The notes beneath the pieces are model-generated. The model saw only the letters and a program-made list of their open reading frames with translations. It was not told where the DNA came from and ran no database searches. A stretch of DNA of 28,099 nt from the IMG/VR virus record IMGVR_UViG_3300043772_001757, positions 1 to 28,099 of that record; one strand, 5' to 3'. Origin of the DNA: a virus. The position numbers were made by a program, and so were the translations under genes. Of this stretch, positions 1,482 to 28,099 are shown piece by piece; position 1 is the stretch's first letter; every line of letters begins with the position of its first letter.

Positions 1482-1716
1482 CGTTCTTTCCTTCCTCGTT
1501 GGCATTGCCGAACGGGACTAGTTTGTTGAGTGCTTCTTGGCGCTGTTTGCAACCGCCGCATGGCTTGATGCCGACCGCAGATGTTGCGGCTGCAATGACA
1601 TCACCTAGACCACGAATACGAACAGTTGTTCCTGTTGCGTTTTTTGCGTGTTCAACTGCGCGAGCGCGTATTGCGGCCGCTTCTTCTTTTGACACAAGTC
1701 GAGTGGTTTGCTTCAT
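1462..1716 (-). CDS. Small CGGC-motif phage protein, 84 aa
   Basis: The ATG at 1716 overlaps the stop of the preceding gene as ATGA, so I chose it over an upstream in-frame ATG at 1824 that would bury 109 bases in that gene. The N-terminal part (residues 1-40) is charged and helical. The C-terminal part carries KPCGGCKQRQEALNKLVPF, a CxxC pair followed by a basic segment and an LNK turn. I recall similar short CGGC-x2-R-x3-LN proteins in other tailed-phage late regions, with no assigned function. The two cysteines could bind metal or be redox active, but two alone are too few for a zinc site unless the protein dimerises. Its stop lies 20 bases inside the next gene, so the two are probably translationally coupled. 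Confidence 0.8.
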   Translation of the reverse strand: MKQTTRLVSKEEAAAIRARAVEHAKNATGTTVRIRGLGDVIAAATSAVGIKPCGGCKQRQEALNKLVPFGNANEEGKNDGTPSV

Positions 1717-3257
1717 GTCACTGACACAATTCGTTTGAGCCAAAAACCATCTTGTTTCACTGATGTACAACTTGTATAAGCAACATAACACTTGCCTATG
1801 TCGCCAATTTGAGCCAAATTGCATAGTGGACTAGCGGTCCAACATAAATAAGCATTGATGCGGTATGAAGAACCTGAACATGTGCTTTCTGTCAGTGCTT
1901 CCGAAACAGGATCAGTTTGCGTAGACGACTGCCATCCACTATTTGTAAGCCCGCCAGACCAAAATGGACTAATGACCGCACACAAATTGTCGCATTGAGA
2001 ACTTCCAGGACATTGATTGAACATGCATGTTGTTATTGGATTTGTTACATTGCACCCCATTGCTATTGATGGACTGGGCTCCAATATTCCAGGGTCATAT
2101 GTGCAATCGCAACACTCTGATGCCATTGTGCATGGGGTTTCTACGACTGTGCGATTGATTTGAAAACCTTGCTCCCACAAACCGTAGTTCCCAGAAAATT
2201 GTTGTAAATAAACTCGTCCTTGCGCCACCCCAAGATTGTTCTTGATGGTGTAACTCGACGATGAAAGTCGAATTTGCCAATCCTCAACAGCATCGCCAAC
2301 GTGCCGAATGTTGATGGTGTCCCATGTTCCGGCGCTGTAGTGACCAATTGGGAATGGACCCTGAATTGGCAAATAAGTTGATGACACGTTACGGAATGTT
2401 GCGCTTGAAAACGACGGTCCCTGTCGGACGCTCACTAGTTCAGTTGTTGCATCAAGCGCAACACGCAACTGCTCTATGGTGTTTGTAGACAATGCAAATG
2501 TGTATTGCGTCACACCAAGATCATTTCGGATGATGCAATCGGTCGCTGTAATTTCACATGTCCATAGAGCCTGTGCGGCAGTCGCACCACCAATGACCAT
2601 TGCCGGAACATCGGCCAGATATGTTCCGCCATATCGATATTCCACTGTTGGCGAAGTTGTATTCGTTGAGTCGTGTTCGGCAATTACGCAATAATGACAC
2701 GAGTTTGCAGGCGACGTAAGTGTCTGTTTTGCCAACTCAATTGATCCAGAGTACGACTCAACAAATCGAGTGATTGACGTTGTATGCCCTGTCAGGAAGA
2801 TGTTTCCTGCATCATTGAATGCCCAAATCCCAGACGTGTTTTCGGTTGCAGTAGACACATACGGCAAAGTCCAACACAGACTTTGCAACGTAGATTCTTG
2901 GACTTCCCCATGAATTTCAGGTGGAATACTGCATCCACCGTTACTGCACCAAGTTTGCGGAGTAACAACTAGGCTACATGAACATCCGCATTCTGCACTT
3001 AGTTCTGGGCAACTTGGTCGTTTGTCATACACGAAATAGTCATACTCATCGCCGGTACCAGGACTGCCATCCGGGTCACAACTTACATAATTTCCGCTGT
3101 AACAATCTGGGTAAGTCGGCCACAAGTAGTCTTGGGCGTCATATGACCAATCGATTACATACGATCTGCATGAGTTGCATGTATGACAAATTTGCACTTC
3201 AACCGGAGTGACAGTTGTTACATCACAACAGCAAACGTATTGGGCAATTGAAGTCAT
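1713..3257 (-). CDS. Cysteine-rich virion or tail protein, 514 aa
   Basis: A ribosome site (GGAGAG) lies nine bases before the ATG. The protein has about 33 cysteines, concentrated in residues 9-125 and 385-505, with clusters such as CCC, CGCSC and CCDC. The middle section is poor in cysteine and rich in Ser, Thr, Tyr, Trp and Asn in beta-like alternation. Two middle segments resemble each other (CIIRNDLGVTQYTFAL and YTIKNNLGVAQGRVYL), suggesting a duplicated beta domain. There is no signal peptide or membrane segment. Lines counted by hand give about 43-48% G+C, lower than the flanking genes, which hints at separate acquisition. Position among structural genes suggests a tail, fibre or surface protein, perhaps disulfide-stabilised after release. 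I do not recognise the family. Its stop overlaps the next start as ATGA. Confidence 0.8.
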   Translation of the reverse strand: MTSIAQYVCCCDVTTVTPVEVQICHTCNSCRSYVIDWSYDAQDYLWPTYPDCYSGNYVSCDPDGSPGTGDEYDYFVYDKRPSCPELSAECGCSCSLVVTPQTWCSNGGCSIPPEIHGEVQESTLQSLCWTLPYVSTATENTSGIWAFNDAGNIFLTGHTTSITRFVESYSGSIELAKQTLTSPANSCHYCVIAEHDSTNTTSPTVEYRYGGTYLADVPAMVIGGATAAQALWTCEITATDCIIRNDLGVTQYTFALSTNTIEQLRVALDATTELVSVRQGPSFSSATFRNVSSTYLPIQGPFPIGHYSAGTWDTINIRHVGDAVEDWQIRLSSSSYTIKNNLGVAQGRVYLQQFSGNYGLWEQGFQINRTVVETPCTMASECCDCTYDPGILEPSPSIAMGCNVTNPITTCMFNQCPGSSQCDNLCAVISPFWSGGLTNSGWQSSTQTDPVSEALTESTCSGSSYRINAYLCWTASPLCNLAQIGDIGKCYVAYTSCTSVKQDGFWLKRIVSVT

Positions 3258-3263
3258 GTTTAG

Positions 3264-3806
3264 TCACTCTCCAGACTCGCACTCACCAATTAGAGGATTG
3301 GGAGCCCAAAATTCAAAGCGGCTCTGGCCGGTGGTTGCAATACGGACTGTGCGCATCATCACAATTGTGTTGTTTGGGATTGCGGCGAACTCGACGCTTG
3401 TGAATGGCGCAGCCGTAAGTTTCCACTGCGTTCCGCTCCATGCAACACCGAACCCATATGCAACTGATGACGTGTTGCCGCTTTCAGCGACGTTGATTGC
3501 ATCGTTTGAACCAGTGCGGCCACTGGTCAAGGTTACGAAATCCGTCGTTGCCCCAATGGTCGTACCAGGACGCATTTCGGTCCACGAATACTTCCATATT
3601 GCAGCAGTTGCACTACTCGTATTTCCGGTGATCTTGGCAGGAAAGAACACCTCGTCAGCCATGCGCGACTGACGCGACGCGAGCGCCGCAATCATCTGTT
3701 CCCAGCCGGCGAGTTGGTTTACAACGCCAGCAAGATCAGCCATTGCATCGCGGAACTCCTGCGAGAATGGGTTGAACTTGCGCTGGAAGAACGATGGGTT
3801 GAACAT
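3264..3806 (-). CDS. Phage structural protein, 180 aa, unknown role
   Basis: The ORF starts four bases after the preceding stop with no clear Shine-Dalgarno, so translation probably depends on coupling. The N-terminus (MFNPSFFQRKFNPFSQEF, then a helix to about residue 50) looks like an assembly or attachment segment. The rest alternates small and hydrophobic residues (VFFPAKITGNTSSATAAIWK, then TIVMMRTVRI) as in a beta-sandwich. The FPAKITG...W.Y.WTE pattern recalls short beta proteins in phage neck or tail regions, but I cannot name a family. No enzyme motif, signal or membrane segment is present. Neighbours are all virion-type genes on the same strand, supporting a minor structural role. 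Confidence 0.72.
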   Translation of the reverse strand: MFNPSFFQRKFNPFSQEFRDAMADLAGVVNQLAGWEQMIAALASRQSRMADEVFFPAKITGNTSSATAAIWKYSWTEMRPGTTIGATTDFVTLTSGRTGSNDAINVAESGNTSSVAYGFGVAWSGTQWKLTAAPFTSVEFAAIPNNTIVMMRTVRIATTGQSRFEFWAPNPLIGECESGE

Positions 3807-4568: not shown

Positions 4569-4823
4569 CTACCCACCAAGATCCTCAACCGCTTGCTTGA
4601 GCCCAACAACCTCATCGTGAATGAGGTGCAGGGCATTGAGGACATCGCGCAGCAACTGATCTGTCTGGCCGCGTTCCTGATTGCCCGTGGTGACTGGAGC
4701 CTGTGCTGCTTGAACCTGGCCGACAGAGGTAGAAAATTCCTGTGCAGCCTCTGCCGCAGCCTCGACTCGCTCGCGGAACGCATCAAGATCAGGCACATCA
4801 GGCATGTTTGACGGGTTCGCCAT
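4569..4823 (-). CDS. Small acidic coiled-coil protein, 84 aa
   Basis: The ATG shares one base with the preceding stop (TAATG), indicating coupled translation. The protein has two predicted helices, residues 12-42 (DAFRERVEAAAEAAQEFSTS) and 54-82 (TDQLLRDVLNALHLIHDEVV), joined by a short TTGNQERG turn. Heptad-like spacing of Leu, Ile and Val in the second helix suggests a coiled coil. It has no cysteine, signal or membrane segment. It lies between two structural genes and may be a chaperone or small virion component, but no specific function can be assigned. Confidence 0.75.
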   Translation of the reverse strand: MANPSNMPDVPDLDAFRERVEAAAEAAQEFSTSVGQVQAAQAPVTTGNQERGQTDQLLRDVLNALHLIHDEVVGLKQAVEDLGG

Positions 4824-5251
4824 TAGGCGTTCGACCCTGCAAGCCGGAACGACACAGCCACGCCGACGTATGGCTGTGTCTTGTTGGAATTGACCTCGAC
4901 GCTTTCAACAAAGCCGGAGAGAGTCTTGGATGCCGTCGCGTTGCCATACGCCATGACAATGGCGTTGCCCGTTCCGGAATCCTCGGAGATGCACGTCGCA
5001 AGGGTAAGCGCGCTTGACGCGGTCATGTAGCCAGTGACAAGAAGGCGCCCCTCTACCAGGTTCGTCTTTGCCAGTCGGCGCGTAGTGTCTACGCCGGCCG
5101 TCACGTCCTGAATGTCTGCCTGCACCTGAAGACGGAATCCAATCACGTCAATGCTCATCACCGGCAGCACCGAAGTGTTGCCGCTGAGGCTGCTGCCGGA
5201 ATACGTCACCGTCAGCGGATTGACTGACGGCTTTGCCAATGCTTCTGGCAT
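4823..5251 (-). CDS. Beta-rich phage structural protein, 142 aa
   Basis: The start has an excellent ribosome site (AGGAGGT) directly after a copy of the 18-bp palindrome. The sequence alternates hydrophobic and Ser/Thr/Gly residues throughout (PLTVTYSGSSLSGNTSVLPV, RLLVTGYMTASSALTLAT, VGVAVSFRLAG), as in an all-beta virion protein. A short charged stretch (GVDTTRRLAKTNLVEGR) sits in the middle. The size would suit a tail-tube-like, head-completion or decoration protein, but I see no defining motif. Genes on both sides are virion-type, and its stop overlaps the next start by one base. Confidence 0.75.
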   Translation of the reverse strand: MPEALAKPSVNPLTVTYSGSSLSGNTSVLPVMSIDVIGFRLQVQADIQDVTAGVDTTRRLAKTNLVEGRLLVTGYMTASSALTLATCISEDSGTGNAIVMAYGNATASKTLSGFVESVEVNSNKTQPYVGVAVSFRLAGSNA

Positions 5252-5263
5252 GGCCTACCTCCT

Positions 5264-5281
5264 AGTCCGGCGCGCCGGACT
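5264..5281. repeat. 18-bp palindrome, copy 2 (intergenic)
   Basis: Perfect AGTCCGGCGCGCCGGACT in the 31-base gap between two minus-strand genes, one base after the TAA of the upstream gene and abutting the AGGAGG ribosome site of the downstream gene. In RNA it could form a 7-bp hairpin with a 4-base loop, or a dimer, next to the ribosome site. No U-tract follows, so it is not a standard terminator. Confidence 0.95.
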
Positions 5282-12504: not shown

Positions 12505-14285
12505 TACTGCTGCTGTCCCTGATTCGCCATGGCAAGGAGGTTGCGCATGGCCTCCTGATCATTGCCCTGCCGGGTTGCCCCAGCCACGTTCTCCCGGATC
12601 GTCGTCCGAGACGTGACCGGCGACTGGAGCGGGCGTTCGCCTGCTCCGCCGGCCTGCTGCATCATCTGCATCTGCTCCTGCGGGATGCGCTCCAAGATGC
12701 GCTCCATCTCCGGGAGGTTGGAGTACTTCGCCATGATCTGCATGAACTCATCCATGTTCACGCCAATGCCGCGCTGCTGGAGTTGCGGCGCCATCGGGAT
12801 GACGAAGTTGGTCATCATCTGGCTGATGGTCTGGAGCCGCTCGGTGGGCGTCCGGCTCTGCATGGAGTACGGGGCAATCTCGACCATGTAGTCAAGGAGA
12901 TCACCTTCGCGGATGTCCTGCGAGAACTCGACCGGGATCGAGAAGTCCGTACCAGCCACCTTCTTGATGACGGTCGGAACCGACACCGGATCGTTCCACA
13001 GGTAGTCAGCAAGGCTCTCAACGACCTTCTTGACTGCCGTGGTCGTGCGATCCTGCATGTCCGCAATCAGCATGTTCGCTGAACGCTGGATGAGGCTTTC
13101 CTGGCCGACCGTGTTCGCCTGACGGCCAAGGCCACCCAGAGCATCAAGATTGCCGCCAAGATAGACAAAGAGATCCTTCAGTTGGAGAAGGAACGCGATG
13201 CTTGCCGAATCCGGCCCGCCGTACCGCGCTTCCTTCGTTGCCTGCGGATTGTCAGAACGGATCATGTCGCCGTCATTGGCCTGCAACAGCCGGCGACCAT
13301 CTTCTTCCGCACCGTTGGCAACGATCGTGACTGTCTTCTGCCGATCTGCCTGACGCACGATCTTGCGGAAGACGCGGTTCGATGCCTCATGCAGATCAAG
13401 CATCGCCTGCGCCGGCGGCAGCGGCATGATGTTGCCGGGCACGTCTCCAAACGCAAGCAGATGGTACGGACCGCTCTCCGGTCCATCCCAGTCCACCACG
13501 CGGATGACCTTGCCGCCATTGATGCCGCTGTTGTCAACGACCTGTACGGTGACCAAGAGATTGTCGTACGGGAGCCATAGATCCCAGAGTTCCACGAGAT
13601 CCATGTAGCCACGTTCAGGGTTCCAGGATCCACCGGTCTGGAGGATCGAAACCTTTTCGTCGCCACCATCGTTGTAGTCGGTGATCTGCGACGGGGTCAG
13701 TTCCTGGTTGCCAAAGATCTTGAGATCCATCGCCGCTTCATATGGCAGCGTGTACCGATTGCCGACGTACTGGCACAGATCCCAACGCTTGGCGTTCATG
13801 TCGAAGACGAAGTCGTCGAAGTCAACGACATCCGCGAACGGAAGCCCTGCGTCGTGGACGTAGCCTTCGATCTCGGCTTGGTTGCCGGGAGAGATGCCGA
13901 CCTTCATCACGCCGACGGAGAACATGGCATCGATCACCCAACGAGAGATCGACTCTTCGAGGTTGATCTCCTTGATCAGCCAGTTGAGCGCCAACTCAAA
14001 GTCGGCTGCGGTTGCAACCAGTCGTTGGTCACGCGGGATGACCATGGCCTGTGGCGCGCGAGCAGCAACCTGGCGACGGTAGATGTTCACCGCCATCTGC
14101 ATCAGGTTGAGCGGCACCTTGTCCTTGGAGCCCATCTCGCCGTAGTTGCTGCCGACGTATGCGCGCACAGCAGCAAGCCGCTGTTCGCGGAATGGCTGCA
14201 TGCGATCGCGAGAGAACTGCACGGCCTCAAGGAGGCGCGATGCCTTCTTCTCGTCGAGGGTCAGGTCACGCTTCTTCTTTGCCAT
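12504..14285 (-). CDS. Portal protein, 593 aa
   Basis: I chose the ATG at 14285, which overlaps the preceding TAA (TAATG), rather than a GTG nine bases upstream. The dodecameric portal would form the DNA entry channel at one capsid vertex and dock the terminase. Residues 10-75 are helical (RLLEAVQFSRDRMQPFREQR), then KVPLNLMQMAVNIYRRQVAA, the helix that starts many portal clip/wing regions. DVVDFDDFVFDMNAKRWDLC is typical of the wing in podovirus-like portals. The stretch LDLHEASNRVFRKIVRQADR fits the long channel helix. The C-terminus (QMQMMQQAGGAGERP onward) is Gln-rich and probably flexible. Length and neighbours fit well. Confidence 0.88.
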   Translation of the reverse strand: MAKKKRDLTLDEKKASRLLEAVQFSRDRMQPFREQRLAAVRAYVGSNYGEMGSKDKVPLNLMQMAVNIYRRQVAARAPQAMVIPRDQRLVATAADFELALNWLIKEINLEESISRWVIDAMFSVGVMKVGISPGNQAEIEGYVHDAGLPFADVVDFDDFVFDMNAKRWDLCQYVGNRYTLPYEAAMDLKIFGNQELTPSQITDYNDGGDEKVSILQTGGSWNPERGYMDLVELWDLWLPYDNLLVTVQVVDNSGINGGKVIRVVDWDGPESGPYHLLAFGDVPGNIMPLPPAQAMLDLHEASNRVFRKIVRQADRQKTVTIVANGAEEDGRRLLQANDGDMIRSDNPQATKEARYGGPDSASIAFLLQLKDLFVYLGGNLDALGGLGRQANTVGQESLIQRSANMLIADMQDRTTTAVKKVVESLADYLWNDPVSVPTVIKKVAGTDFSIPVEFSQDIREGDLLDYMVEIAPYSMQSRTPTERLQTISQMMTNFVIPMAPQLQQRGIGVNMDEFMQIMAKYSNLPEMERILERIPQEQMQMMQQAGGAGERPLQSPVTSRTTIRENVAGATRQGNDQEAMRNLLAMANQGQQQ

Positions 14286-16597: not shown

Positions 16598-16866
16598 CCC
16601 TCCCCCTCGTACAACGCACGCTCCATCTCCATCCGCCTGCACTCACGCAAGAGCACATGCAGACGCTCGATCTCCGCACGCATCCACGTCTGCTCCCGCA
16701 TCTCCTTCGCCAACTCCATCCGCAAGTTCTGGATCTCGCCAGAACACTCGCGAAGCAAGTCCTCCGCCTGCTTGCAGCGGGGCGCCGAGAACCGGTCAAC
16801 CTTCTCGACAATGTCCAGACCGACATCCTCCTCCGGGACTGTACCAACCCACTCCCACTCAAGCAT
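16594..16866 (-). CDS. Small helical protein, 90 aa
   Basis: Three in-frame starts exist (16920, 16881, 16866). I favour 16866, preceded by AGGA at good spacing and overlapping the previous stop by eight bases; 16881 is possible. The N-terminus (MLEWEWVGTVPEEDVGLDIV) is acidic. Residues 30-80 are a long helix with Cys, Arg, Glu and Leu (CKQAEDLLRECSGEIQNLRM, then AEIERLHVLLRECRRMEMER), which predicts a coiled coil. No motif indicates a role. It is one of three short genes before TerL and may assist packaging. Confidence 0.65.
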   Translation of the reverse strand: MLEWEWVGTVPEEDVGLDIVEKVDRFSAPRCKQAEDLLRECSGEIQNLRMELAKEMREQTWMRAEIERLHVLLRECRRMEMERALYEGEG

Positions 16867-17488
16867 CACTTTCCTGGGCATCGCCAGCCACCTTTCCACT
16901 GATCTCACGAACCCTGTCAATCAACTCCAACACCGCAGACCCATCGTCCGAAATCCGCTCCGCCGCCTCCAACTGCTGCTTGCTCGGCATCATCTTCGAC
17001 CAGATCTGCCCCCAGAACTGAGCCTCATTCTGATTCGTCCGCCTCGCCCACGACAACATGCTCCACGCCTCCATGCTCGGCGCATCCTCCGCCCTCGGAT
17101 CCTCCACCATCATCATCTTCGCCACCCACTCCACCGTCTTCGTAATCGAACACGCCCGCCCAGCCAACACCTCCAACTTCACCCGCCCAATCGAGTCCGG
17201 CGCGCCGGACTTTTCCGCCCCTCCAACACCCGCATCACCACCCACAACACCACCACCCCCAAGATCACCCCCAGAGACATCCATACCCCCATCTTCCACA
17301 ACAACACCACCATTCGTCACCTCCTCAAACGCCTGAGCCCACGCCTGCGGCGCAGGCATCCCACCAGCCTTCAACGACTCACGACGATCCACAAACTGCT
17401 GCCATAACCCCCGCTCCACAAGTTCCGCACGCTGCGCAACCTTGTTCTTGCGGTGCGCAAACTGCGCATCACTAATCCTCGGCTTCAT
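16859..17488 (-). CDS. First late-operon gene, possible small terminase, 209 aa
   Basis: The frame stays open far upstream through GC-rich noise; I chose the ATG at 17488 because normal protein composition begins there. A ribosome site is poor. Residues 1-57 are basic and helical (MKPRISDAQFAHRKNKVAQR, then QQFVDRRESLKAGGMPAPQA) and may bind DNA. Residues 58-93 form a glycine-rich linker with SGAPD at 94-98 from the 18-bp palindrome. Residues 99-205 are helical (RVKLEVLAGRACSITKTVEW, then MEAWSMLSWARRTNQNEAQF). A DNA-binding front, flexible link and helical oligomer domain, just upstream of TerL, would suit a small terminase, but I see no diagnostic motif. Confidence 0.68.
   Translation of the reverse strand: MKPRISDAQFAHRKNKVAQRAELVERGLWQQFVDRRESLKAGGMPAPQAWAQAFEEVTNGGVVVEDGGMDVSGGDLGGGGVVGGDAGVGGAEKSGAPDSIGRVKLEVLAGRACSITKTVEWVAKMMMVEDPRAEDAPSMEAWSMLSWARRTNQNEAQFWGQIWSKMMPSKQQLEAAERISDDGSAVLELIDRVREISGKVAGDAQESDA
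17194..17211. repeat. 18-bp palindrome, copy 3 (coding)
   Basis: Perfect AGTCCGGCGCGCCGGACT within the first gene of the late operon. It encodes SGAPD directly after a Gly-rich linker, in the same reading phase as copies 1 and 5. Confidence 0.95.
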
Positions 17489-17939: not shown

Positions 17940-17956
17940 AGTCCGGCGCGCCGGAC
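17940..17956. repeat. Palindrome, copy 4 (intergenic, 17 of 18 bases)
   Basis: AGTCCGGCGCGCCGGAC followed by C in place of T; the inner 16 bases are a perfect palindrome. It lies 25 bases upstream of the -35 of the early promoter, where it could also serve as a protein-binding site. Confidence 0.92.
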
Positions 17957-17981
17957 CCGACGCCACCTGTCCGGTGGGGGG

Positions 17982-18010
17982 TTGACACTCCCGGCGGGTG
18001 CGTGTATGCT
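17982..18010 (+). promoter_or_regulatory. Sigma70-type early promoter
   Basis: TTGACA (17982-17987), a 17-base spacer and TATGCT (18005-18010) make a promoter with a perfect -35 and ideal spacing; the -10 matches TATAAT at four positions. Transcription should start near 18017 and read the plus-strand operon. The hairpin CCACC/GGTGG ending four bases before the -35 may be a regulatory site. Confidence 0.82.
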
Positions 18011-18050: not shown

Positions 18051-18078
18051 GCTCGACCCCTCTACTGGGAGCATGACA

Positions 18079-18474
18079 ATGAAGACCACTCGCAAGCCCG
18101 CCCCGATCCAAGCCCAACCCCTCCCCGCATGGGCGACCCAGTTCGTCCGCCTATGCGACCTGCTTGCAGAATCCTGCGCCACGACCGACGATGCCGTGAA
18201 CGCAGCCCGCTCCGCCCTTGGGTGCATGGCCGTACTGGGGAGCGTGAATGGAGTCCTGTACGAGGAGGTGCGCGACGCGGTGGACGCCTATGTGCAGGCG
18301 GCGGTGCTGCGCGTGCGCATGACGCGCGCCTACAACGCCACCCCATGGCGCAACCCCGAATGCCCATGCACCATGAGTGTGGCCCTGAAGACCGCGAACG
18401 GCCATTACGACGTTGAACGTCGCGAACTGGAAGCCGCCCTGCGCGACGTTCGCCCGTCCCTGCCCCTGACGTGA
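18079..18474 (+). CDS. Early protein, tandem paralogue 1, 131 aa
   Basis: Two ATGs lie close together (18073 and 18079). GGAG is one base from the first but seven from the second, the normal spacing, so I chose 18079. The protein begins MKTTRKPAPIQAQPLPAWAT and ends ALRDVRPSLPLT. The body is helical with several cysteines (VRLCDLLAESCATTDDAVNA, then NPECPCTMSVAL). No signal, membrane segment or known motif is present. It is the first gene of the early operon and shares start, end and layout with the next gene, so they are duplicates. First position behind a strong promoter suggests a host-interaction role, but that is speculation. Confidence 0.78.
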   Translation: MKTTRKPAPIQAQPLPAWATQFVRLCDLLAESCATTDDAVNAARSALGCMAVLGSVNGVLYEEVRDAVDAYVQAAVLRVRMTRAYNATPWRNPECPCTMSVALKTANGHYDVERRELEAALRDVRPSLPLT

Positions 18475-18555
18475 CCGCGCACCGTGCGCACCTACTGGGT
18501 GCGCCGGATGCGTCGGCCGCGTCGGCCCCGCACACATCACCCCTCTACTGGGAGC
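18475..18555 (+). promoter_or_regulatory. Structured intercistronic element, copy 1
   Basis: After the stop come CCGCGCACCGTGC, then a hairpin GCGCACC (18486-18492)/GGTGCGC (18498-18504), the string CGGATGCG, a second hairpin GGCC/GGCC (18515-18527), then GCACACATCACCCCTCTACTGGGAG. Copies 2 and 3 share the layout and flanks but have different first-stem sequences that still pair. The loop and stem of this copy include CTACTGGG, matching the start of the initiation box. Confidence 0.8.
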
Positions 18556-18561
18556 ATGACA

Positions 18562-18951
18562 ATGAAGACCACTCGCAAGCCCGCCCCGATTCAGCGCCCC
18601 GACCTCTCGCCATGGGCCATCCAGTTCGTGCGGTTCGTTGAACTGGTGGGGGAGACTGCGCCCGACGTGGACGCCGCCGTGCAGACAGTCACCTTCGCCT
18701 TCGGCTGCATGGCGGACCTCGCCAACTTCAAGGGCGACGAGTACCGGATCGCGCGCGACTCCGCACAGGACTATGTCCGGAACCTGTACTGGCGCCGACT
18801 GGTCGTGCGGATGGAGAACGCCTGCCCGATCGACGATCGCATGGACCGCCCATCGGCCATCGTTCAACTGGCGGAGCATACGAACGCATGCTGCCGCATG
18901 GCGCTGCGCGACGCCCTGACCGACATTCGCCCGTCCCTGCCCCTGACGTGA
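18562..18951 (+). CDS. Early protein, tandem paralogue 2, 129 aa
   Basis: As for its neighbour, the second of two close ATGs (18556, 18562) has proper spacing to GGAG. The first 13 codons are nearly identical at DNA level to paralogue 1, and the last codons plus the following spacer (CGCCCGTCCCTGCCCCTGAC and on) are identical too, while the middle differs widely. The middle is helical (FVRFVELVGETAPDVDAAVQ, DSAQDYVRNLYWRRLVVRME). Shared ends with a diverged core point to gene duplication followed by either selection or repeated recombination at the ends. Function is unknown; no enzyme or membrane motif is visible. Confidence 0.78.
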   Translation: MKTTRKPAPIQRPDLSPWAIQFVRFVELVGETAPDVDAAVQTVTFAFGCMADLANFKGDEYRIARDSAQDYVRNLYWRRLVVRMENACPIDDRMDRPSAIVQLAEHTNACCRMALRDALTDIRPSLPLT

Positions 18952-19039
18952 CCGCGCACCGTGCACCGTCCCCGCGACGGTGCCGGATGCGACGGCCACG
19001 TTGGCCCCGCACACTTCACCCCCCTACTGGGAGACTCTC
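18952..19039 (+). promoter_or_regulatory. Structured intercistronic element, copy 2
   Basis: The first hairpin is a perfect 8-bp stem, GCACCGTC (18963-18970)/GACGGTGC (18976-18983), with loop CCCGC. CCGGATGCGACGGCC follows with a second hairpin GGCC-ACGTT-GGCC (18994-19006). The end, GCACACTTCACCCCCCTACTGGGAG, supplies the ribosome site six bases before the next ATG. There is no U-tract, so it is not a standard terminator. Confidence 0.82.
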
Positions 19040-20458
19040 ATGGCTCGCAAGGCACCTATCTCACTCTTCACGTCCGACCGTGGCACCCGCTATTTGTTCC
19101 TCAACGGCGGCGCATTCCGCACCGCCTACAACGCATGGCGCGCGACTGGCGCCGGGTCGGGCATGCCGTCGGAACTCTCCAACTTCGCCAAGATCGCGAT
19201 CGTCGAGCGCGGTGGCCGCGTTTCGTTCGAGGTGAAGGCGAGCGCCACCCACCAGTACATGGCGCTCGCCAGTATCTCTGAATGGGCCGACGCCCTTGGG
19301 CGCGCCTTCGGGGACACCCTGCCCGTGCCCCACGGCGCCCCCGTTGCCGTCGCGCTCGCGCAGGCGGTGAGTGACTGCGCGCAGAACCGCGCCACCGTCG
19401 CCCAGTTCGATTCCCTCGCCCTGCTCGCCGCGCAGGCGTTCCCGGCGCAGGACCGGGACGATGACGCGCCCCGGCGCGAGCCCGCACCGCAGCCCGCGCG
19501 CCTCGACGCGCAGCCGCAGCCCGCGCCGCAGCCGTCCGGCGTCAACGTCGGCGCAGGCATGCTCGACGCCTTCGGGGACTTCGGCAAGGCGATCCATGGC
19601 ACCATCGTCACCGTCGTGGAGCGCGCGGTGTCCGACCTCCCCAAGGGCGGCGGCGCCGTGCACATCACCGTGCCCGGCTACACCCCAGTCGCCCTGCCCG
19701 ACGGCGAGGTGACGCACGAATCGTTCCCCGCCCTGCTGACCCGCTGCACCGCGCAGAAGCCCAAGGACCGCAATGTGCTGCTACTGGGGCCGCGCGGGTC
19801 CGGCAAGACCCATGCCGCCGAACAGGTCGCGCGCGCCCTTGGCATGGCGTTCGACGCCGTCAGCATGTCCGGCGGCACGACCGAACGCGCGTTTTGGGGA
19901 TCGACAACCATCCGCGACGGGAACATGGCGTGGAAGCCCTCGCGCTTCGTCGAGGCGTTCCGCAAGGGCGGCGTGTTCCTCATTGACGAACCCACCGTCG
20001 TGACCGCCCTGAACATGGCGACCTCGAACGGCTACATCTGCCCGTCAGACTCTGACGAGCGGATCGAACGTCATCCGGACTTCATCGTGCTCGCAGGCGC
20101 GAACGCGCTCGCCTCCGACCGCGCCTACACCGGGTCCACCCGCCTCGACGCATCAAGCCTCGACCGATTCGCCATCATGCGGTGGGACTACAGCCCGGCC
20201 ATCACCGCGCGCGTGGCGGCGGAGTGCGGAGACGCCCGCGCGGCGGACTGGATCGTGCGCCTGTCCGACGCCATGCGCGCCCGGATCGATGCGAAGAACT
20301 GGCGCGGCGAAGTCGAGTGGGGCACCCGCACCGTCGGACGCGTTGCGTCGTGGATCCGCGCCGGACGCTCCCGCGCCGATGCCGTCGCCATGGAACTGGA
20401 CGCCATGCCTGCCAACATCCGGAACGAACTGAACACCGTCGCCGTCGGCGTCGGCTGA
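19040..20458 (+). CDS. MoxR/CobS-like AAA+ ATPase, 472 aa
   Basis: The ATG at 19040 is six bases after GGGAG. Residues 1-135 form an N-terminal domain of unknown type (ARKAPISLFTSDRGTRYLFL). A Pro/Ala/Gln linker spans about 143-168. The ATPase core has Walker A GPRGSGKT (250-257), Walker B VFLIDEP (312-318), a sensor-1-like FIVLAGAN (348-355) and an Arg-rich TGSTRLDASSLDRF (364-377) that should supply the arginine finger. The GTTERAFWGS and CPSDSDE segments fit the MoxR/CobS branch, which remodels proteins or metal complexes, usually with a VWA-domain partner. The next gene may be that partner. CobS-like ATPases are known in phages with mostly untested roles. Confidence 0.85.
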   Translation: MARKAPISLFTSDRGTRYLFLNGGAFRTAYNAWRATGAGSGMPSELSNFAKIAIVERGGRVSFEVKASATHQYMALASISEWADALGRAFGDTLPVPHGAPVAVALAQAVSDCAQNRATVAQFDSLALLAAQAFPAQDRDDDAPRREPAPQPARLDAQPQPAPQPSGVNVGAGMLDAFGDFGKAIHGTIVTVVERAVSDLPKGGGAVHITVPGYTPVALPDGEVTHESFPALLTRCTAQKPKDRNVLLLGPRGSGKTHAAEQVARALGMAFDAVSMSGGTTERAFWGSTTIRDGNMAWKPSRFVEAFRKGGVFLIDEPTVVTALNMATSNGYICPSDSDERIERHPDFIVLAGANALASDRAYTGSTRLDASSLDRFAIMRWDYSPAITARVAAECGDARAADWIVRLSDAMRARIDAKNWRGEVEWGTRTVGRVASWIRAGRSRADAVAMELDAMPANIRNELNTVAVGVG

Positions 20459-20486: not shown

Positions 20487-21410
20487 ATGACACTCACCCA
20501 CACCGAATTCGCCGCGCGCCTCGACGCGCGCCCCAACGCCCCGCGCATCGTCGCGTGGACCGACCGCAGCGCCACCCTCGAATGGCCCAACCTCGACGCA
20601 GCCGTGGCTAACGCCCGCGCAGGCACCGCCTACATGCAGGCAGGCGGGCCGCGCGAGGCATGGGAGACGTACATCGAGAACCATAAGGGCGACCGCAAGT
20701 GGAACGGCGGCGTGACCGACGCCGACGCATGGGACCGCATCGTGCGCAAGCCGCCCGCCGACCTCACCGCACGGGTGCGCGAGTGCATGGACGCTCTCGA
20801 CGCCGTGCCGCTCCCGCTCGACGAGGCGCCCCGCCGCCGCACCATGCGCAACCTCGACGAGGGCGACACCCTCGACGCCGTGCGCATGGTCGAGGACTTC
20901 AACCTCGACCGCGCGTGGAGCGAGCGGAGGCGCAGCACCAGGGCGAGGCCGTCCCTGCGCATCCTGCTCAACTCCGGCCTGAACTGCAACCTCGACGCCA
21001 AGGCGCTCGCATGGCGCGGCGCATGCGCCATGGCGATCGCCCGCCGTGCAGAGGACGCAGGCGCCGACGTTGAGGTGCTCGCCGCCGTGAACTGGCAAGC
21101 GATCGCGACCGACACCGGGCGCGACCTTGTGATGGCGTGGCCGCTCAAGGCGCGCGGCGCATTCGCTGACCGCGACACCCTCACCGCCTACTGCTGCCAC
21201 TTCGCCGCGTTCCGGTGGTTCGCATGGGTGCTCGCCGCGCAGAACATGCAGGGCATGCAAGTGTGCCGCGCATGGGGACGCCAAGGCCGCATCGAACAGG
21301 TCACGCAGCACCTAGGCGCCGACGTGGTCGTGGACTACGACGTGATCACCCGCGAGCGCGCAGTCGAGCGCCTGCGCAAGGTGGCCGAACTGGTCGAGGC
21401 TCGACGCTGA
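20487..21410 (+). CDS. Protein with VWA-like segment, probable AAA+ partner, 307 aa
   Basis: The start lies 28 bases after the ATPase stop behind CCTACTGGGAG. The N-terminal half (residues 30-145) is mixed alpha/beta, with AWETYIENHKGDRKWNGGVT. From about 155 comes SLRILLNSGLNCNLDAKALA, then a helix WRGACAMAIARRAEDAGADV and strand EVLAAVNW: strand, loop, helix, strand, as at the start of a von Willebrand A domain. The metal-site DxSxS is replaced by NSGLN, so metal binding is doubtful. I recall phage proteins with this layout next to CobS-like ATPases, but cannot check. The C-terminus is basic and helical (ITRERAVERLRKVAELVEAR). The two probably work as a complex. Confidence 0.72.
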   Translation: MTLTHTEFAARLDARPNAPRIVAWTDRSATLEWPNLDAAVANARAGTAYMQAGGPREAWETYIENHKGDRKWNGGVTDADAWDRIVRKPPADLTARVRECMDALDAVPLPLDEAPRRRTMRNLDEGDTLDAVRMVEDFNLDRAWSERRRSTRARPSLRILLNSGLNCNLDAKALAWRGACAMAIARRAEDAGADVEVLAAVNWQAIATDTGRDLVMAWPLKARGAFADRDTLTAYCCHFAAFRWFAWVLAAQNMQGMQVCRAWGRQGRIEQVTQHLGADVVVDYDVITRERAVERLRKVAELVEARR

Positions 21411-23355: not shown

Positions 23356-23385
23356 TTGACCGATTCCCGGGCGTGCTGTTAGAGT
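23356..23385 (+). promoter_or_regulatory. Promoter of the replication operon
   Basis: TTGACC (23356-23361), an 18-base spacer and TAGAGT (23380-23385) with an upstream TG (extended -10) make a plausible promoter. The -35 lies within a fifth copy of the 17-bp repeat sequence, so a protein binding the repeats would block or stimulate it. Confidence 0.65.
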
Positions 23386-23392
23386 GGTTCAC

Positions 23393-23461
23393 ATGTGGCA
23401 TCTGGAAGCGCCGTATGCGCCCCGATGGCCACCCTTTCGTAAAGGGGACTACTGTGTTTGA
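23393..23461 (+). CDS. Possible leaderless leader peptide, 22 aa
   Basis: An ATG eight bases after the -10 element would be at or near the first transcribed base, so any translation would be leaderless. The frame begins MWHLEAPYAPRWPPFRKGDY and ends in a TGA that overlaps the TGAGGAG ribosome site of the HTH gene. A hairpin CCCTTT/AAAGGG (23432-23446) lies inside. It could couple or regulate HTH translation. It has no Shine-Dalgarno, and chance occurrence is possible. Confidence 0.4.
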   Translation: MWHLEAPYAPRWPPFRKGDYCV

Positions 23462-23472
23462 GGAGATTCAGA

Positions 23473-23706
23473 ATGCAGCCCGCAAGCATGTCGATCGTGG
23501 TGATCACCGAGGAACTCCGACAGCGAGTCATTCGCCTGAAGGAGAAGTACGGAGTGTCGTTCCGACAGTTGGCGAGGGAGGCCAAGATGAGCCAGTCGCA
23601 CCTGATGCGGTTCGTGTGGCAGAAGCATCACAACCTGATGGCGCAAACCCTGACGCGGCTCGACGCGACGGTAAGCAGGCTCACCGCAGAGCGCGAAGCA
23701 AGGTAA
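23473..23706 (+). CDS. Small helix-turn-helix protein, 77 aa
   Basis: AGGAG lies eight bases before the ATG at 23473. Residues 14-27 form a first helix (ELRQRVIRLKEKYG), and 29-50 read SFRQLAREAKMSQSHLMRFV, a clear helix-turn-helix with the usual Ala in the first helix and Ser-Gln-Ser at the recognition-helix start. The C-terminus (residues 55-77) is a helix with Leu and Val repeats that may dimerise. The protein is short for a repressor but the size suits a compact Cro- or XRE-like regulator. It is the first gene after the 17-bp repeats, so it may bind them and control its own promoter. That link is inference. Confidence 0.78.
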   Translation: MQPASMSIVVITEELRQRVIRLKEKYGVSFRQLAREAKMSQSHLMRFVWQKHHNLMAQTLTRLDATVSRLTAEREAR

Positions 23707-23732
23707 AGCCGCTGCCGGAGATCCACAGCGGC

Positions 23733-24629
23733 ATGCTGACGGATGCATGCCCGCGCCGGGTGCAGTTGCGAATCGAAGGCAAGAGCGTCCTGTCTGCCCC
23801 GACGGCGCTGTACCGTGGCGTGTTGGCGGGCGAGGTGCTGCGCGAGTACCACATTGCGAACAAATGGGACTTGACGCCATCTATGGTGGTGTCCGTTGTC
23901 GCAGCCAAGGTGCGCGCGCAGTTCACCGCCGAGGGTCGCATTCTCACGGATTCCGTCGAGAAGAACATCGACGAGATCCACTCCGAGGTGGCGACGAACA
24001 CCGCGCTGTACATCGATCGGTTCGCTGCGCGGTTCATGCGGGCGAGGTTGGTCGGGTGCGAGTTGCCATGCCGCATGCAGATCGGCAAGGTCAAGTTTGC
24101 TTCGCACATCGACCTCATGTTCCGTGACCTCAACGGAGAACTGGGTGGCGCGCCTGGGCAGTTGGTGATTTGGGATTGGAAGTGGCGCCAGGAATCGCCA
24201 AGCCGTGCGTACCTATCCCGCAACCTCCAGTTGGCGCTGTACTGGCTGATGGCGCAGCGTGGCAGCATCTGCATCTCTCCCGAGTTTGACCTATGGGAGA
24301 AGTTTGGCGAGGCGCCTGCGGTTGCGTGGTGCCACCTCCCGAGCCTGAAGCCGTTCTCAAGGGCGACCACCATTCAGGACGATGATGGCGTCGAGCGAAC
24401 CTATGTGAAGGGCGAGTTCCGCCCCGAACGGAGCATCGTCAAGGACTGTGGTTTCAGGGACGGCATGCAGCAACATGCCGAGGCCGAGATCCTGAAGCGC
24501 GTTGAGTTGATGAAGAAGGGGTTGGACATTGCGATTCCGGATCCTGCCGGATGCCACCTGTGTGATTGCGAACCGTGGTGCCGACGTTTCGACACCGCTG
24601 AACTTGGAACCCGAACTGCGAAGGACTGA
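23733..24629 (+). CDS. PD-(D/E)XK nuclease, Cas4/RecB-like, 298 aa
   Basis: The frame is open upstream, but those residues overlap the HTH gene in another phase, so I start at the ATG 23733; the true start may be slightly earlier, since no close ribosome site is visible. MLTDACPRRVQLRIEG carries the N-terminal Cys6. The active site is HIDLMF (Asp127) and VIWDWKW (Asp148, Lys150), then a QLALYWL helix, the Gln/Tyr motif of RecB-family nucleases. The C-terminal GCHLCDCEPWCRR holds Cys274, 277, 279 and 283, which with Cys6 could bind an Fe-S cluster as in Cas4. With the RecT-like protein it forms a phage recombination pair: 5'-end resection and annealing. It is not next to any CRISPR array. Confidence 0.85.
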   Translation: MLTDACPRRVQLRIEGKSVLSAPTALYRGVLAGEVLREYHIANKWDLTPSMVVSVVAAKVRAQFTAEGRILTDSVEKNIDEIHSEVATNTALYIDRFAARFMRARLVGCELPCRMQIGKVKFASHIDLMFRDLNGELGGAPGQLVIWDWKWRQESPSRAYLSRNLQLALYWLMAQRGSICISPEFDLWEKFGEAPAVAWCHLPSLKPFSRATTIQDDDGVERTYVKGEFRPERSIVKDCGFRDGMQQHAEAEILKRVELMKKGLDIAIPDPAGCHLCDCEPWCRRFDTAELGTRTAKD

Positions 24630-24630
24630 C

Positions 24631-25038
24631 ATGAACTGGGCAGATAGACCATCGAAGACACCCAAGGCACCCAAGCCGTCCACCACGACGGCCGAGACTG
24701 CGGAGATCGTGTTGGACACGTTGACGTGCGCGTTCATCTACATCGAATCGGTCAAGCGGTATCAGAAGGCCGTCCACGCGATTGTTGACAGCGAGGACGA
24801 GAACTATGCCAAGGCCCGTGCGCTCGCATGGGAACGCGCATGCAGCACGTCCATCGACATGCTCAACAAGGCATTTCAGGATTTGCTGAAGTCCGACACG
24901 CGAGTCAATGAGATCCTCGCGGCACGTTGGGATACGACCGAAGAGATCATCGCATCAAGCATCCCCGTGCTTGCTCTGATGCAAGAGACGGAATCCATGG
25001 AGCGCAACAACAAGAGCAAGGAGAAGACCGATGAATGA
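24631..25038 (+). CDS. Unknown protein between nuclease and RecT, 135 aa
   Basis: The ATG follows the nuclease stop by one base and has AAGGA upstream. Residues 1-27 are Pro/Thr/Lys-rich and flexible. Residues 28-120 are helical (TAEIVLDTLTCAFIYIESVK, RALAWERACSTSIDMLNKAF, TRVNEILAARWDTTEEIIAS), and the C-terminus is polar (MERNNKSKEKTDE). There is no catalytic motif. Placement between nuclease and annealing protein suggests a recombination accessory protein. Its stop lies eight bases inside the next gene. Confidence 0.75.
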   Translation: MNWADRPSKTPKAPKPSTTTAETAEIVLDTLTCAFIYIESVKRYQKAVHAIVDSEDENYAKARALAWERACSTSIDMLNKAFQDLLKSDTRVNEILAARWDTTEEIIASSIPVLALMQETESMERNNKSKEKTDE

Positions 25039-25948
25039 GATCATGCGTACAACGACGATGCCTATCGCCATGCAGATGGACCCGATGACGGTGGCACAGG
25101 TGTTCAAGGCGTCGGGGATGTTCCCTGACATCCAGTCCGAGGCCGCTGCCTGCGCCAAGATCATCATTGGTCGTGGGCTTGGCTTGAGCGACTACGACGC
25201 CATGACCGGACTCCACATCATCAAGGGCAAGGCCGTGCTTGCATCGAACCTGATGGCAGCAGCCATCAAGCGCGCAGGCAAGTACGACTACCGCGCCGAA
25301 TGCACCGATGAAGACTGCACCATCGTGTTCTATGGACGCACCATGGACGGCAAGATGGAGCAGATCGGCACTACCTCATACACCATGGAGGATGCCAAGC
25401 GCGCTCGCCTGACTGGCGGCGACAACTGGCAGAAGTACCCACGCGCCATGCTCTTTGCCCGCTGCATCAGCACGGGGTACAAGCAGCACTGCCCTGATGC
25501 CCTGGGTTCAGCGCCTGTCTACGTCGAAGCCCATGGCGAGATGGAGATCACGGACGATTCAGCGGGTCCGGTCAAGGAAGTGCAGACCGTGCGCCCGGTG
25601 ATTGAGCAGCCGAAGAGCAAGAAGGGGTCGGCCAAGCAGTCGTTCCTCGCAGCGGTGTCCGAGTGGACCGGATGCGGAATGAAGGACGCAATTCCCCATG
25701 GCATGCGTATCCTCGCGGCGTTGTCGCTGCCGACCGATGGGACCGTGGATGATGATAAGGTGCGGTGGGCCGAGACGTGGGTGCGCACCCGGATCGAAGA
25801 GGGGCACACCATTGACATCCTCGACACCAAGGAAGCCGTCCCTGTTCCCGAGTCCAAGCCGGCCGTTGTCAAGCGCACGACGCGCAAGGACATTGCTACG
25901 CCGGTCGTTGAAGTCGCACCCGCAACCACTGAAGAACTGGAATTCTGA
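25031..25948 (+). CDS. recT: RecT-like single-strand annealing protein, 305 aa
   Basis: Residues 20-130 carry a block I recognise from phage RecT-family annealing proteins: VFKASGMFPDIQSEAAACAK, IIIGRGLGLSDYDAMTGLHI, then KGKAVLASNLMAAAIKRAGK and YDYRAECTDEDCTIVFYGRT. GDNWQKYPRAMLFARCISTG completes the conserved core. The protein would coat single strands and pair them with homologous DNA. Residues 185-305 form a variable, partly flexible tail ending in EELEF; an acidic hydrophobic end like this often binds a partner in single-strand binding proteins. It follows a Cas4/RecB-type nuclease, the usual pairing. Its TGA overlaps the next ATG (TGATG). The gene symbol denotes family only. Confidence 0.85.
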   Translation: MNEIMRTTTMPIAMQMDPMTVAQVFKASGMFPDIQSEAAACAKIIIGRGLGLSDYDAMTGLHIIKGKAVLASNLMAAAIKRAGKYDYRAECTDEDCTIVFYGRTMDGKMEQIGTTSYTMEDAKRARLTGGDNWQKYPRAMLFARCISTGYKQHCPDALGSAPVYVEAHGEMEITDDSAGPVKEVQTVRPVIEQPKSKKGSAKQSFLAAVSEWTGCGMKDAIPHGMRILAALSLPTDGTVDDDKVRWAETWVRTRIEEGHTIDILDTKEAVPVPESKPAVVKRTTRKDIATPVVEVAPATTEELEF

Positions 25949-26721
25949 TGCCACGCAAGAAGAAGGAAATCATCGACGTTGTCCCGCACGTTGGAATTAC
26001 GCAGCAGTCTGCGCTTGATCAGCAACTGGACGTGATTCGGATTGCCGAGCAGGAAGTGGTGTCACGTTGGCAAGTCATGGCGATTGCCACCAAGACGATT
26101 CACAGACAGCGCCTGTGGGAATTGAACTACGAATCGTTTGAGCACTGCATGTCGGAAGCCCTTGGTTGGAAGAAGTCATGGGCCTACGAGATGCTCAAGG
26201 CTGCGGACGTGCTTGAAGACGCGCCAATCACCGACGCGAGCATGGCCCGGTATCTGCACCCACTTGAAGGCGCCAAGCGTCTCACGGCATGGCAGTCTGC
26301 TGTCGAGTCTGCGCAACCGGAGAAGCCGACCCGGGATGACGTGAAGAAGGCGGCGGCACTGCTGCGTGGTGGCGAGGCAACCCCGAAGGAAGAGCCCGAA
26401 GAGGGCGAGAAGGAGTCCGGCGCGCCGGACCAGGCACCAACACCATCCATTGTCCCGTCTGGCGAGGAGTTTGACCGCATCGTTGCCATGCTTCGTGAAG
26501 CGCGCAACGCAATCGAGGAACTTGCCGAGAAGCCGGCCGGCGCGTTTGTGACGACTGCGCAGATCATTGTTGACCTCAAGAACGTCTTCAATGCCCTGAC
26601 GTGGGCCAAGCCGCATTGCGTCTGCGTGTACTGCGAAGGAGAGGGCTGCAAGCATTGCCAAGGCCATGGTTGGATGTGCAAGGGTCTGTACGCATCTGCA
26701 CCGGAGGATCTGAAGCAATGA
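25948..26721 (+). CDS. HTH and zinc-ribbon protein, 257 aa
   Basis: Residues 25-110 are helical, with LWELNYESFEHCMSEALGWK and KSWAYEMLKAADVLEDAPIT, a layout I recall from ParB-like or replication-associated phage proteins with a helix-turn-helix. Residues 125-140 are basic. A Glu-rich linker (144-170) contains SGAPD (157-161) from the fifth palindrome copy. Residues 172-220 are helical. The C-terminus CVCVYCEGEGCKHCQGHGWM (Cys224-Cys244) has CxxCxGxGC spacing like DnaJ zinc centres, with six cysteines. The architecture suggests DNA binding and protein contact in replication. No enzyme motif is present. Its stop overlaps the next start (ATGA). Confidence 0.75.
   Translation: MPRKKKEIIDVVPHVGITQQSALDQQLDVIRIAEQEVVSRWQVMAIATKTIHRQRLWELNYESFEHCMSEALGWKKSWAYEMLKAADVLEDAPITDASMARYLHPLEGAKRLTAWQSAVESAQPEKPTRDDVKKAAALLRGGEATPKEEPEEGEKESGAPDQAPTPSIVPSGEEFDRIVAMLREARNAIEELAEKPAGAFVTTAQIIVDLKNVFNALTWAKPHCVCVYCEGEGCKHCQGHGWMCKGLYASAPEDLKQ
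26414..26430. repeat. Palindrome, copy 5 (coding, 17 of 18 bases)
   Basis: AGTCCGGCGCGCCGGAC followed by C; the inner 16 bases are perfectly palindromic. It encodes SGAPD within the acidic linker of the HTH/zinc protein, on the strand opposite to copies 1 and 3 but in the same phase, since the motif reads the same on both strands. Confidence 0.92.
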
Positions 26722-26957
26722 CGTGGCGAGACAAACTGGCACAGAAGGCCAATGGCATGCTCCCCGCAGGCGAGTACGGCATGTACCTCAAGCGTGAATT
26801 GCTAGAGATTGTGGCCGAACTTGACCGCCTCACCGCCGAGCGAGACGAGGCGAGGCGGGAGGTGTGTGTGTGGCAGGGATTGGACACGGGCAATACGCCA
26901 CGCGACACCGCAACGGTGCGGGGATGGAATTGCTTTCCACAGGAGGACGGCAAGTGA
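26718..26957 (+). CDS. Small coiled-coil protein, 79 aa
   Basis: The ATG at 26718 overlaps the previous stop (ATGA); longer frames upstream are rejected. Residues 1-25 read MTWRDKLAQKANGMLPAGEY, then a heptad helix ELLEIVAELDRLTAERDEAR, and a C-terminal part VWQGLDTGNTPRDTATVRGW. The LTAERDEARR stretch resembles LTEERDEAKR in the minus-strand 68-aa protein at 16391; these may be related or convergent coils. Its end contains AGGAGG, the ribosome site of the helicase. No function is assigned. Confidence 0.75.
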   Translation: MTWRDKLAQKANGMLPAGEYGMYLKRELLEIVAELDRLTAERDEARREVCVWQGLDTGNTPRDTATVRGWNCFPQEDGK

Positions 26958-28099
26958 ATCTTCGACCATACCAACATGACGCAGTGAAGGGAGTGCAATC
27001 CGCCCTGACCGGGAAGAAGTCAGCATTGGTGGTCATGCCAACCGGAACTGGCAAGACCGTGTGCTTTGCCCATATCGCCAAGCAGGCCGTCTCACGGGTC
27101 ATGGTGATTGCGCACCGCGAAGAGTTGGTACAGCAAGCGGCTGACAAGATCCGGTCGGTTACTGGGATGTCGCCGGATATTGAGATGGCGGAGTACAAGG
27201 CAGGCCGGATGTACAAGGCGCCTGTGGTTGTGGCGAGTGTGCAAACCCTGTGCGCTCCATGGGGCGACGTTCACCGCATGATGAAGTTCAACCCGGATGA
27301 GTTCGACATGCTCGTGATCGACGAGGCTCACCATGCAACCGCCGATTCATATCGGCGGATCATTGCGCACTTCTCGCGCAATCAACGGCTGCGAACCGTT
27401 GGGTTCACGGCGACTCCCGACCGAGCCGACAAGGCCGCGCTTGGCATGGTGTTCGATTCGGTTGCGTTCCAGTACGAGATCCTCACCGCAATGAGTGATG
27501 GATGGCTTGTGCCAATTGAAACACAGCAAGTCATCGTCAAGGATCTCGATTTCAGCCACGTCAAGACCATCGCCGGCGATTTGAACCAGGGTGAACTGGC
27601 AACGATCATGCAACAGGAGAAGGTTCTGCATGGCGTCGTAAGCCCAACCATTGAGATTGCGGGCAAGCGCAAGACACTTGTGTTTGCGTCAAGCGTTGCG
27701 CATGCGGAGCGCATGGCCGAGATCTTCAACCGCCATGGCGTGACTGCGGCAGTTGTGCATGGCGGGACGTTCAAGGATGAGCGACGCCGGATCCTTCAGG
27801 CATACGCCGACGGGAAGATTCAAGTGCTTTGCAACTGCGGTGTTGCTGTTGAGGGATTTGATTGCCCGGGAATTGAAGTCGTGGTCATTGCGCGGCCAAC
27901 CAAGTCGCGCGCCCTGTACACACAGATGGTCGGACGTGGCACCCGTGTCCTTCCAAACGTGGTAGATGGTCTGTCTGACGCATCGGCACGGCGGGCTGCG
28001 ATTGCGGCAAGCAAGAAGCCGCGCATGCTTGTGATCGATTTCACTGGCAACAGTGGTCGGCACAAACTGGTTACGGCGGCGGACATCCTTGGCGGGAAG
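26954..28099 (+). CDS. SF2 DEAD/DEAH-type helicase, 3' end outside window
   Basis: A GTG at 26954 (GTGA overlap with the previous stop, AGGAGG upstream) starts 382 codons open to the window end. Motifs in order: Q-like LRPYQHDAV (3-11), Walker A VMPTGTGKT (27-35), Ia IAHRE (52-56), Ib-like VASVQTL, Walker B VIDEAHH (121-127), III FTATPDR (151-157), IV TLVFASS (241-247), V-like VEGFDCPGI (299-307) and VI QMVGRGTR (324-331). This is a full helicase core of the DEAH/Res-like SF2 branch common in phages, where it may act in replication start, branch migration or recombination, as UvsW does in T4. C-terminal domains are not seen. Confidence 0.9.
   Translation, partial: MNLRPYQHDAVKGVQSALTGKKSALVVMPTGTGKTVCFAHIAKQAVSRVMVIAHREELVQQAADKIRSVTGMSPDIEMAEYKAGRMYKAPVVVASVQTLCAPWGDVHRMMKFNPDEFDMLVIDEAHHATADSYRRIIAHFSRNQRLRTVGFTATPDRADKAALGMVFDSVAFQYEILTAMSDGWLVPIETQQVIVKDLDFSHVKTIAGDLNQGELATIMQQEKVLHGVVSPTIEIAGKRKTLVFASSVAHAERMAEIFNRHGVTAAVVHGGTFKDERRRILQAYADGKIQVLCNCGVAVEGFDCPGIEVVVIARPTKSRALYTQMVGRGTRVLPNVVDGLSDASARRAAIAASKKPRMLVIDFTGNSGRHKLVTAADILGGK

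Follow-up and report, generated by a model that had tools for sequence, protein, structure and literature searches.

Dispersed 18-bp palindromes, different in each of several sister phage clades, as putative landing sites for a DNA-binding protein

The parS and NBS sites are palindromes of 14–16 bp read by the ParB/Noc HTH fold, and the Noc sites are dispersed. The KorB operators (OB) of plasmid RK2 are 16-bp sites, some located close upstream of promoters and some distal to them (PMC11790492), and the RK2 system also features a partner of KorB, KorA. Cluster A stoperators (L5/D29) comprise an operator at the early promoter and many dispersed sites whose consensus varies between phages; the sites are 13 bp long, asymmetric, oriented with transcription, and read by a temperate-phage repressor (PMC5712189). 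The nearest known phenomenon to the one described here is the set of 17-bp dyad repeats found in Cluster O mycobacteriophages (Corndog), TGTTCGG-NNN-CCGAACA, present in more than 30 copies in phages that lack integrase and parAB and encode an AAA ATPase as well as a ParB-like protein; the function of the repeat is unexplained (PMC4351075). For a decade, dispersed dyad repeats in seemingly non-temperate phages have had neither a known binder nor a function.

We analyzed the window, a 28.1-kb piece of a phage record that contains several copies of an 18-bp palindrome. Like the Cluster O repeats, these are short inverted repeats with dyad symmetry, invariant arms, and a variable center, dispersed in many copies in and between genes, and the phages likewise encode an AAA ATPase and a ParB-like protein but neither integrase nor parAB; however, the repeat sequence, copy number, and length differ. 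Profile comparison of Firecracker gp94, the Cluster O ParB-like protein, with the candidate binding protein of the window (the 25948 protein) gave no match, and gp94 matches ParB-like partition families. As with stoperators, a site at the early promoter is accompanied by dispersed sites, with a sequence that varies between phages, although here the sites show symmetry and an integrase was not detected. The model of the 25948 protein resembles the ParB-type HTH domain of KorB, whereas the CTP-binding ParB N-terminal domain of KorB was not found in the phage records analyzed here. In contrast to parS and NBS, the sites are 18 bp long and lie on a phage, and the protein has no CTPase domain. A literature search for the palindrome sequences themselves returned no match.

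Within the window, the perfectly palindromic 18-mer AGTCCGGCGCGCCGGACT has three exact matches and two copies with a single mismatch (ending in GGACC), against a chance expectation of ~2 × 10⁻⁶ copies (Table 1). The largest comparable palindrome family has one or two members in shuffled sequence versus five in the window. The intergenic slot of the copy at 5264 is matched in relatives at G001 20189, G002 9427, and G006 32046. No Rfam families or tRNAs were found in the window.

Table 1 Palindrome copies and neighboring features in the 28.1-kb window.
Feature	Position	Strand	Context	Remarks
Exact palindrome AGTCCGGCGCGCCGGACT	242–259		Read as SGAPD (residues 409–413) in gene 3–1481 (-)	Linker slot occupied likewise in G001, G002, G003, and G006
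Exact palindrome	5264–5281		Intergenic, immediately 5′ of the ribosome-binding site and ATG of gene 4823–5251 (-)	
Possible decayed copy, may be chance	13208–13225		Portal gene	4 mismatches; 3 mismatches in L082 and L097
TerS-like gene	16859–17488	-		Function inferred from position upstream of the terminase large subunit; no PHROG or Pfam match
Exact palindrome	17194–17211		Read as SGAPD (residues 94–98) in the TerS-like gene	Sister clade has a different palindrome in the equivalent slot
17/18 palindrome	17940–17957		24 bp upstream of the early promoter -35 box	
Sigma-70-type promoter TTGACA-N17-TATGCT	17982–18010	+		No other strong match in the window under the criteria applied
PD-(D/E)XK exonuclease	23373–24629	+	Early operon	
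RecT-like annealing protein	25031–25948	+	Early operon	phrog_561
Candidate binding protein	25948–26721	+		ParB/Noc/KorB-type HTH domain, disordered linker, C-terminal helices and Cys cluster
17/18 palindrome	26414–26431		Inside the gene of the candidate binding protein; SGAPD (residues 157–161) in the disordered linker	
Helicase, continuing beyond the window end	26864–28099	+	Early operon	

Among 2.9 million viral contigs, the palindrome occurs in only 27 stretches, several of which are multi-copy. The 84,980 bacterial and archaeal genomes contain 38 stretches with the palindrome, each of them single-copy, and a host-derived repeat or host motif was rejected on this ground. The multi-copy records are relatives of the window phage, with 6 copies in G001, 8 in G002, 5 in G003, and 6–7 in G006. 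The copies of this group, hereafter clade I, occupy matching places, namely in linkers of the 3–1481 gene, the scaffold gene, and the TerS-like gene, in the 25948 gene and a giant gene, before gene 4823 and the early genes, and after a RusA-like gene (a label assigned by eye). The scaffold-gene copy is present in G001, G002, and G006 and missing from the scaffold gene of the window, where the flanking sequence is still there. Across 45 distinct clade I sites, each of the 18 positions carries 1.3–2.0 bits of information, compared with at most 0.2 bits outside, and conservation ends exactly at the 18-bp borders. The palindrome is almost certainly a site, putative as read from sequence, on which a DNA-binding protein lands at ~8–12 places per phage genome. 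Two further observations concern individual records. A lone exact palindrome at position 8896 of G007 (IMGVR_UViG_2708742476_000001) is probably due to chance; protein comparison showed no kinship of this record to the phage group. The record G003 (IMGVR_UViG_3300035680_000060) from 18146 onward and from 1 onward matches the window from 1 onward and from 25121 onward, respectively, with 100% identical proteins; by sequence, the two look like parts of a single phage.

Further sets of relatives carry other dispersed palindromes. Clade II phages, with a terminase 57–60% identical, have the 18-bp palindrome ACCTGCCANNTGGCAGGT, dispersed in ~6–8 copies in long records and read, in the equivalent linker and phase, as LPRGR or LPHGR. 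At the orthologous place in the TerS-like linker, the DNA that spells SGAPD in clade I gives way to ACCTGCCACGTGGCAGGT (LPRGR) or close variants. The clade III motif, TGTCGCGC-CA-GCGCGACA, was searched as a consensus and is based on a single genome, G011, with four copies against ~0.05 expected at that stringency; other fragments of similar relatedness yielded no match to it. The palindromes of the remaining two clades were found de novo: GTTGGTTC-GC-GAACCAAC for clade IV, with 9–12 copies in G027, G028, G030, and G033, and TTCCGGAAT(T/C)CCGGAA for clade V, with ~5 clear copies in G026 and two each in G029 and G031. The genomes of clades IV and V were fetched via a TerS-like alignment after the hypothesis that the HTH protein implies a palindrome of its own had been framed. 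Five sets of relatives thus have five dispersed palindromes with 4–12 copies each, where the shuffle maximum is 1–2 for all except the third, and all five can be written as 8-2-8 bp, the fifth being less certain at its outer ends. Probably a single phage protein, one with a DNA-binding domain of the chromosome-partition type, recognizes the different palindromes of these sister phages. A genome-wide set of sites can switch its sequence, probably along with its reader.

The candidate for this reader is the 25948 protein. Relatives of it are encoded in 12 of the 12 genomes that cover the region (the window, G002, G003, and G006; G012, G013, and G021; G011; G027, G028, and G030; G026), every one of which has a palindrome family, while the more distant relatives G014, G015, and G016 have neither. 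This co-occurrence is confounded by descent, since the genomes without the HTH protein are also the most distant; counted by clade (5 vs 3), Fisher's p is only ~0.02. In a structural model built from six sequences (mean pLDDT 78), residues ~19–140 form a helical domain predicted with good confidence and preceded only by a short disordered N-terminus, and residues 142–167 form a disordered linker. Among the best structural matches are Spo0J–parS (Z 9.7), ParB–parS (9.6), Noc–NBS (8.7), and KorB–OB (6.1), and the Rubisco assembly factor Raf1 scores 10.6; for the clade II protein, the Noc–NBS domain ranks first (Z 8.0, 108 residues aligned), and Z values of 8–10 are middling for a helical domain. 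The central HTH DNA-binding domain is assigned by predicted fold. Foldseek with the protein model gave no PDB match below E 0.1, the protein profile found nothing convincing among PDB sequences, and tblastn against cultured phages detected no relative of the window protein. Similarity of the recognition helix between clades tracks similarity of the half-site poorly. Clades I and V have both KKSWAYE and the core TCCGG in common, the other pairs do not track, and we claim no helix-to-half-site code across clades.

Placement of the sites relative to early genes provided a further line of evidence. The palindrome lies upstream of a strong promoter at distances of 24 bp in the window, 13 in G002, 29 in G012, 30 in G021, and 13 in G011 (five genomes from three clades; shift-test p 0.007–0.022 each). 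In G006, only a weaker promoter stands beside its copy, and the geometry is not convincing in clades IV and V. According to the gene maps of the window, G011, G012, and G013, the promoter-side copies stand before the exonuclease, RecT, HTH protein, and helicase genes. Start-associated sequences of the Cluster K type are characterized by close linkage of their copies to translation starts. In clade IV, 13 of 23 copies lie directly 5′ of a ribosome-binding site and ATG, and the linkage to gene starts is significant in two genomes (7/12, p = 1 × 10⁻⁷; 6/11, p = 4 × 10⁻⁶). No such linkage was seen in clades III and V, and in clades I and II it is at most marginal; start-codon linkage was therefore rejected as a general rule and holds for clade IV only.

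Taken together, the simplest account, which we consider likely, is that the palindrome acts in cis as a DNA site for a phage protein, most likely the 25948 protein, and that the copies are dispersed operators of an early regulator. We infer that the protein would bind the palindrome as a dimer via its ParB/Noc/KorB-type HTH domain, at ~8–12 copies scattered over a genome of 43–47 kb. In clades I–III, one copy lies just upstream of a strong promoter serving the early operon to which the HTH gene itself belongs, and in clade IV many copies lie directly before early gene starts. Such an arrangement could provide autoregulation of early transcription together with repression or organization of the genome at the remaining sites, much as KorB operators or stoperators do, and in-gene copies may survive where the linker peptide they spell is harmless. 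A broader proposal, which we offer tentatively as a serious possibility short of the likelier one above, is that an apparently non-temperate phage family uses a CTPase-less ParB/Noc-type protein with its own dispersed 18-bp address palindrome as a genome regulator and organizer, and that sister clades may have swapped all addresses together with the reading helix while keeping the architecture (8-2-8 bp, with one site close to the early promoter or to the starts of early genes). With five clades, five sites, and one candidate protein, binding, specificity, and function are directly testable.

We regard it as unlikely that a phage protein binds these sites for genome partition, condensation, or packaging rather than for transcription. 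The ParB/Noc-like fold of the models would suit such a role, as would the site that clades I, II, IV, and V have inside the TerS-like gene or close to it. The copies are also spaced more evenly than expected by chance in G002 (largest-gap p 0.006) and G012 (p 0.014), and not clearly so in G006 and G013. However, clade IV copies are unevenly bunched within ~10 kb, and eight dispersed sites are unlike a single pac or cos site. Neither the ParB CTPase domain (PF02195) nor a ParA-type ATPase (PF13614) had a match in 11 phage records, with positive controls in both searches, and no tyrosine integrase was detected in the palindrome-bearing records. ParABS partition and an integrated prophage were rejected on these grounds, and without an integrase there is no known lysogenic state to maintain. 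As the CTPase domain is absent, we did not file the 25948 protein as a member of the ParB family.

Binding by a different protein, be it from the host, the TerS-like protein, or a regulator that escaped detection, is also improbable. The TerS-like gene is the one coding slot that is certainly common to clades I and II, which would fit a role for its product. Against this, the HTH protein is the sole conserved early protein found with a site-specific DNA-binding fold, and it is its HTH domain that is conserved most where genomes have the site in common: 86–89% identity versus 52–68% for the rest of the protein within clade I (p 0.0005–0.012), and 72–76% versus 57–58% within clade II (p 0.04–0.1). 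Between clades, this excess conservation is mostly gone. A host factor, in turn, would need to vary across five clades with five palindromes.

We see very little room for the alternative that the element acts as RNA, in the form of a hairpin with a 7-bp stem and a 4-base loop serving as a terminator, RNase III site, or 5′-UTR element. All five palindromes could fold in this way, T runs follow some clade I copies, and the position of clade IV copies before ribosome-binding sites and start codons would accord with a 5′-UTR element. Nonetheless, compensatory double changes were seen in none of 12 variant forms of the clade I site, and most one-sided changes break a pair. The loop, too, is conserved and symmetric, the exact sequence is kept beyond what pairing demands, and many copies lie mid-gene.

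The reading preferred here, a DNA site, accounts for the peptide by which the palindrome had been noticed. The first-pass annotation described three coding copies, always read as SGAPD inside protein linkers. The three readings are confirmed (Table 1), with two of the copies exact and the third a 17/18 match, and a common phase in three of three is weak evidence by itself (chance 1/9). The word "always" holds within the coding copies of the window: no real gene reads the copies at 5264 or 17940 as SGAPD, one being intergenic and the other lying before the early genes, and the giant-gene copy is read as VRRAG in G002, G003, and G006. The placement in linkers was borne out by the model of the 25948 protein (pLDDT <50 at residues 142–167) and by the TerS-like protein, where the site falls within the sole strongly gappy block, between two conserved blocks. 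The suggestion of filtering for harmless linkers is likewise supported, as coding copies lie in variable or disordered linkers in both clades I and II and the scaffold gene of the window lacks its copy. Ordinary protein conservation, recognizable by SGAPD spelled with different codons, was not seen: all SGAPD copies read TCC GGC GCG CCG GAC. In G006, base changes are non-synonymous (SGATD, SGVPD, SGGTD) and concentrated in the center, while the outer half-sites of the DNA are largely kept, with AGTCCG retained on one side and CGGACT on the opposite side in all but one case. SGAPD is a by-product of copies that happen to lie in genes, and a DNA site of this kind can dictate the wording of a protein linker. 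The further idea that several phage proteins share SGAPD, or its DNA, as a short peptide tag or interaction motif has next to no chance of being right, for although five clade I protein slots are read in the SGAPD phase and all are linker-like, it is contradicted by the intergenic and promoter-side copies, the VRRAG readings, the uniform codons, and the non-synonymous drift in G006, and largely refuted by the different peptide at the equivalent linker of clade II.

Several other features of these genomes were observed. The giant gene (~3,850 codons in G003), which carries the VRRAG-phase palindrome, is split over the ends of the 43.5-kb G002 record (35578–43509 and 2–3652), and because of this split G002 probably represents a complete genome in circularly permuted form. 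The window segment 17520–18000, which separates the structural genes on the minus strand from the early genes on the plus strand, is very G+C-rich and contains long, probably spurious frames on both strands. An AAA_5-type ATPase (18980–20458) followed by a DUF7192-kind protein (20487–21410; labelled from a Pfam match in the G002 orthologue) stands at the head of the early genes. A second repeat, CTACTGGGAG, occurs just 5′ of early start codons at 18062, 18545, 19024, 20469, and 21486 in the window and at 23489 and 25406 in G002; this start-associated leader is a different element from the palindrome. Downstream of the promoter, the two short early genes have nearly identical beginnings (ATGACAATGAAGACCACTCGCAAGCCCGCCCCGAT; window 18062–18110 and 18545–18593) and are apparently a tandem duplication.
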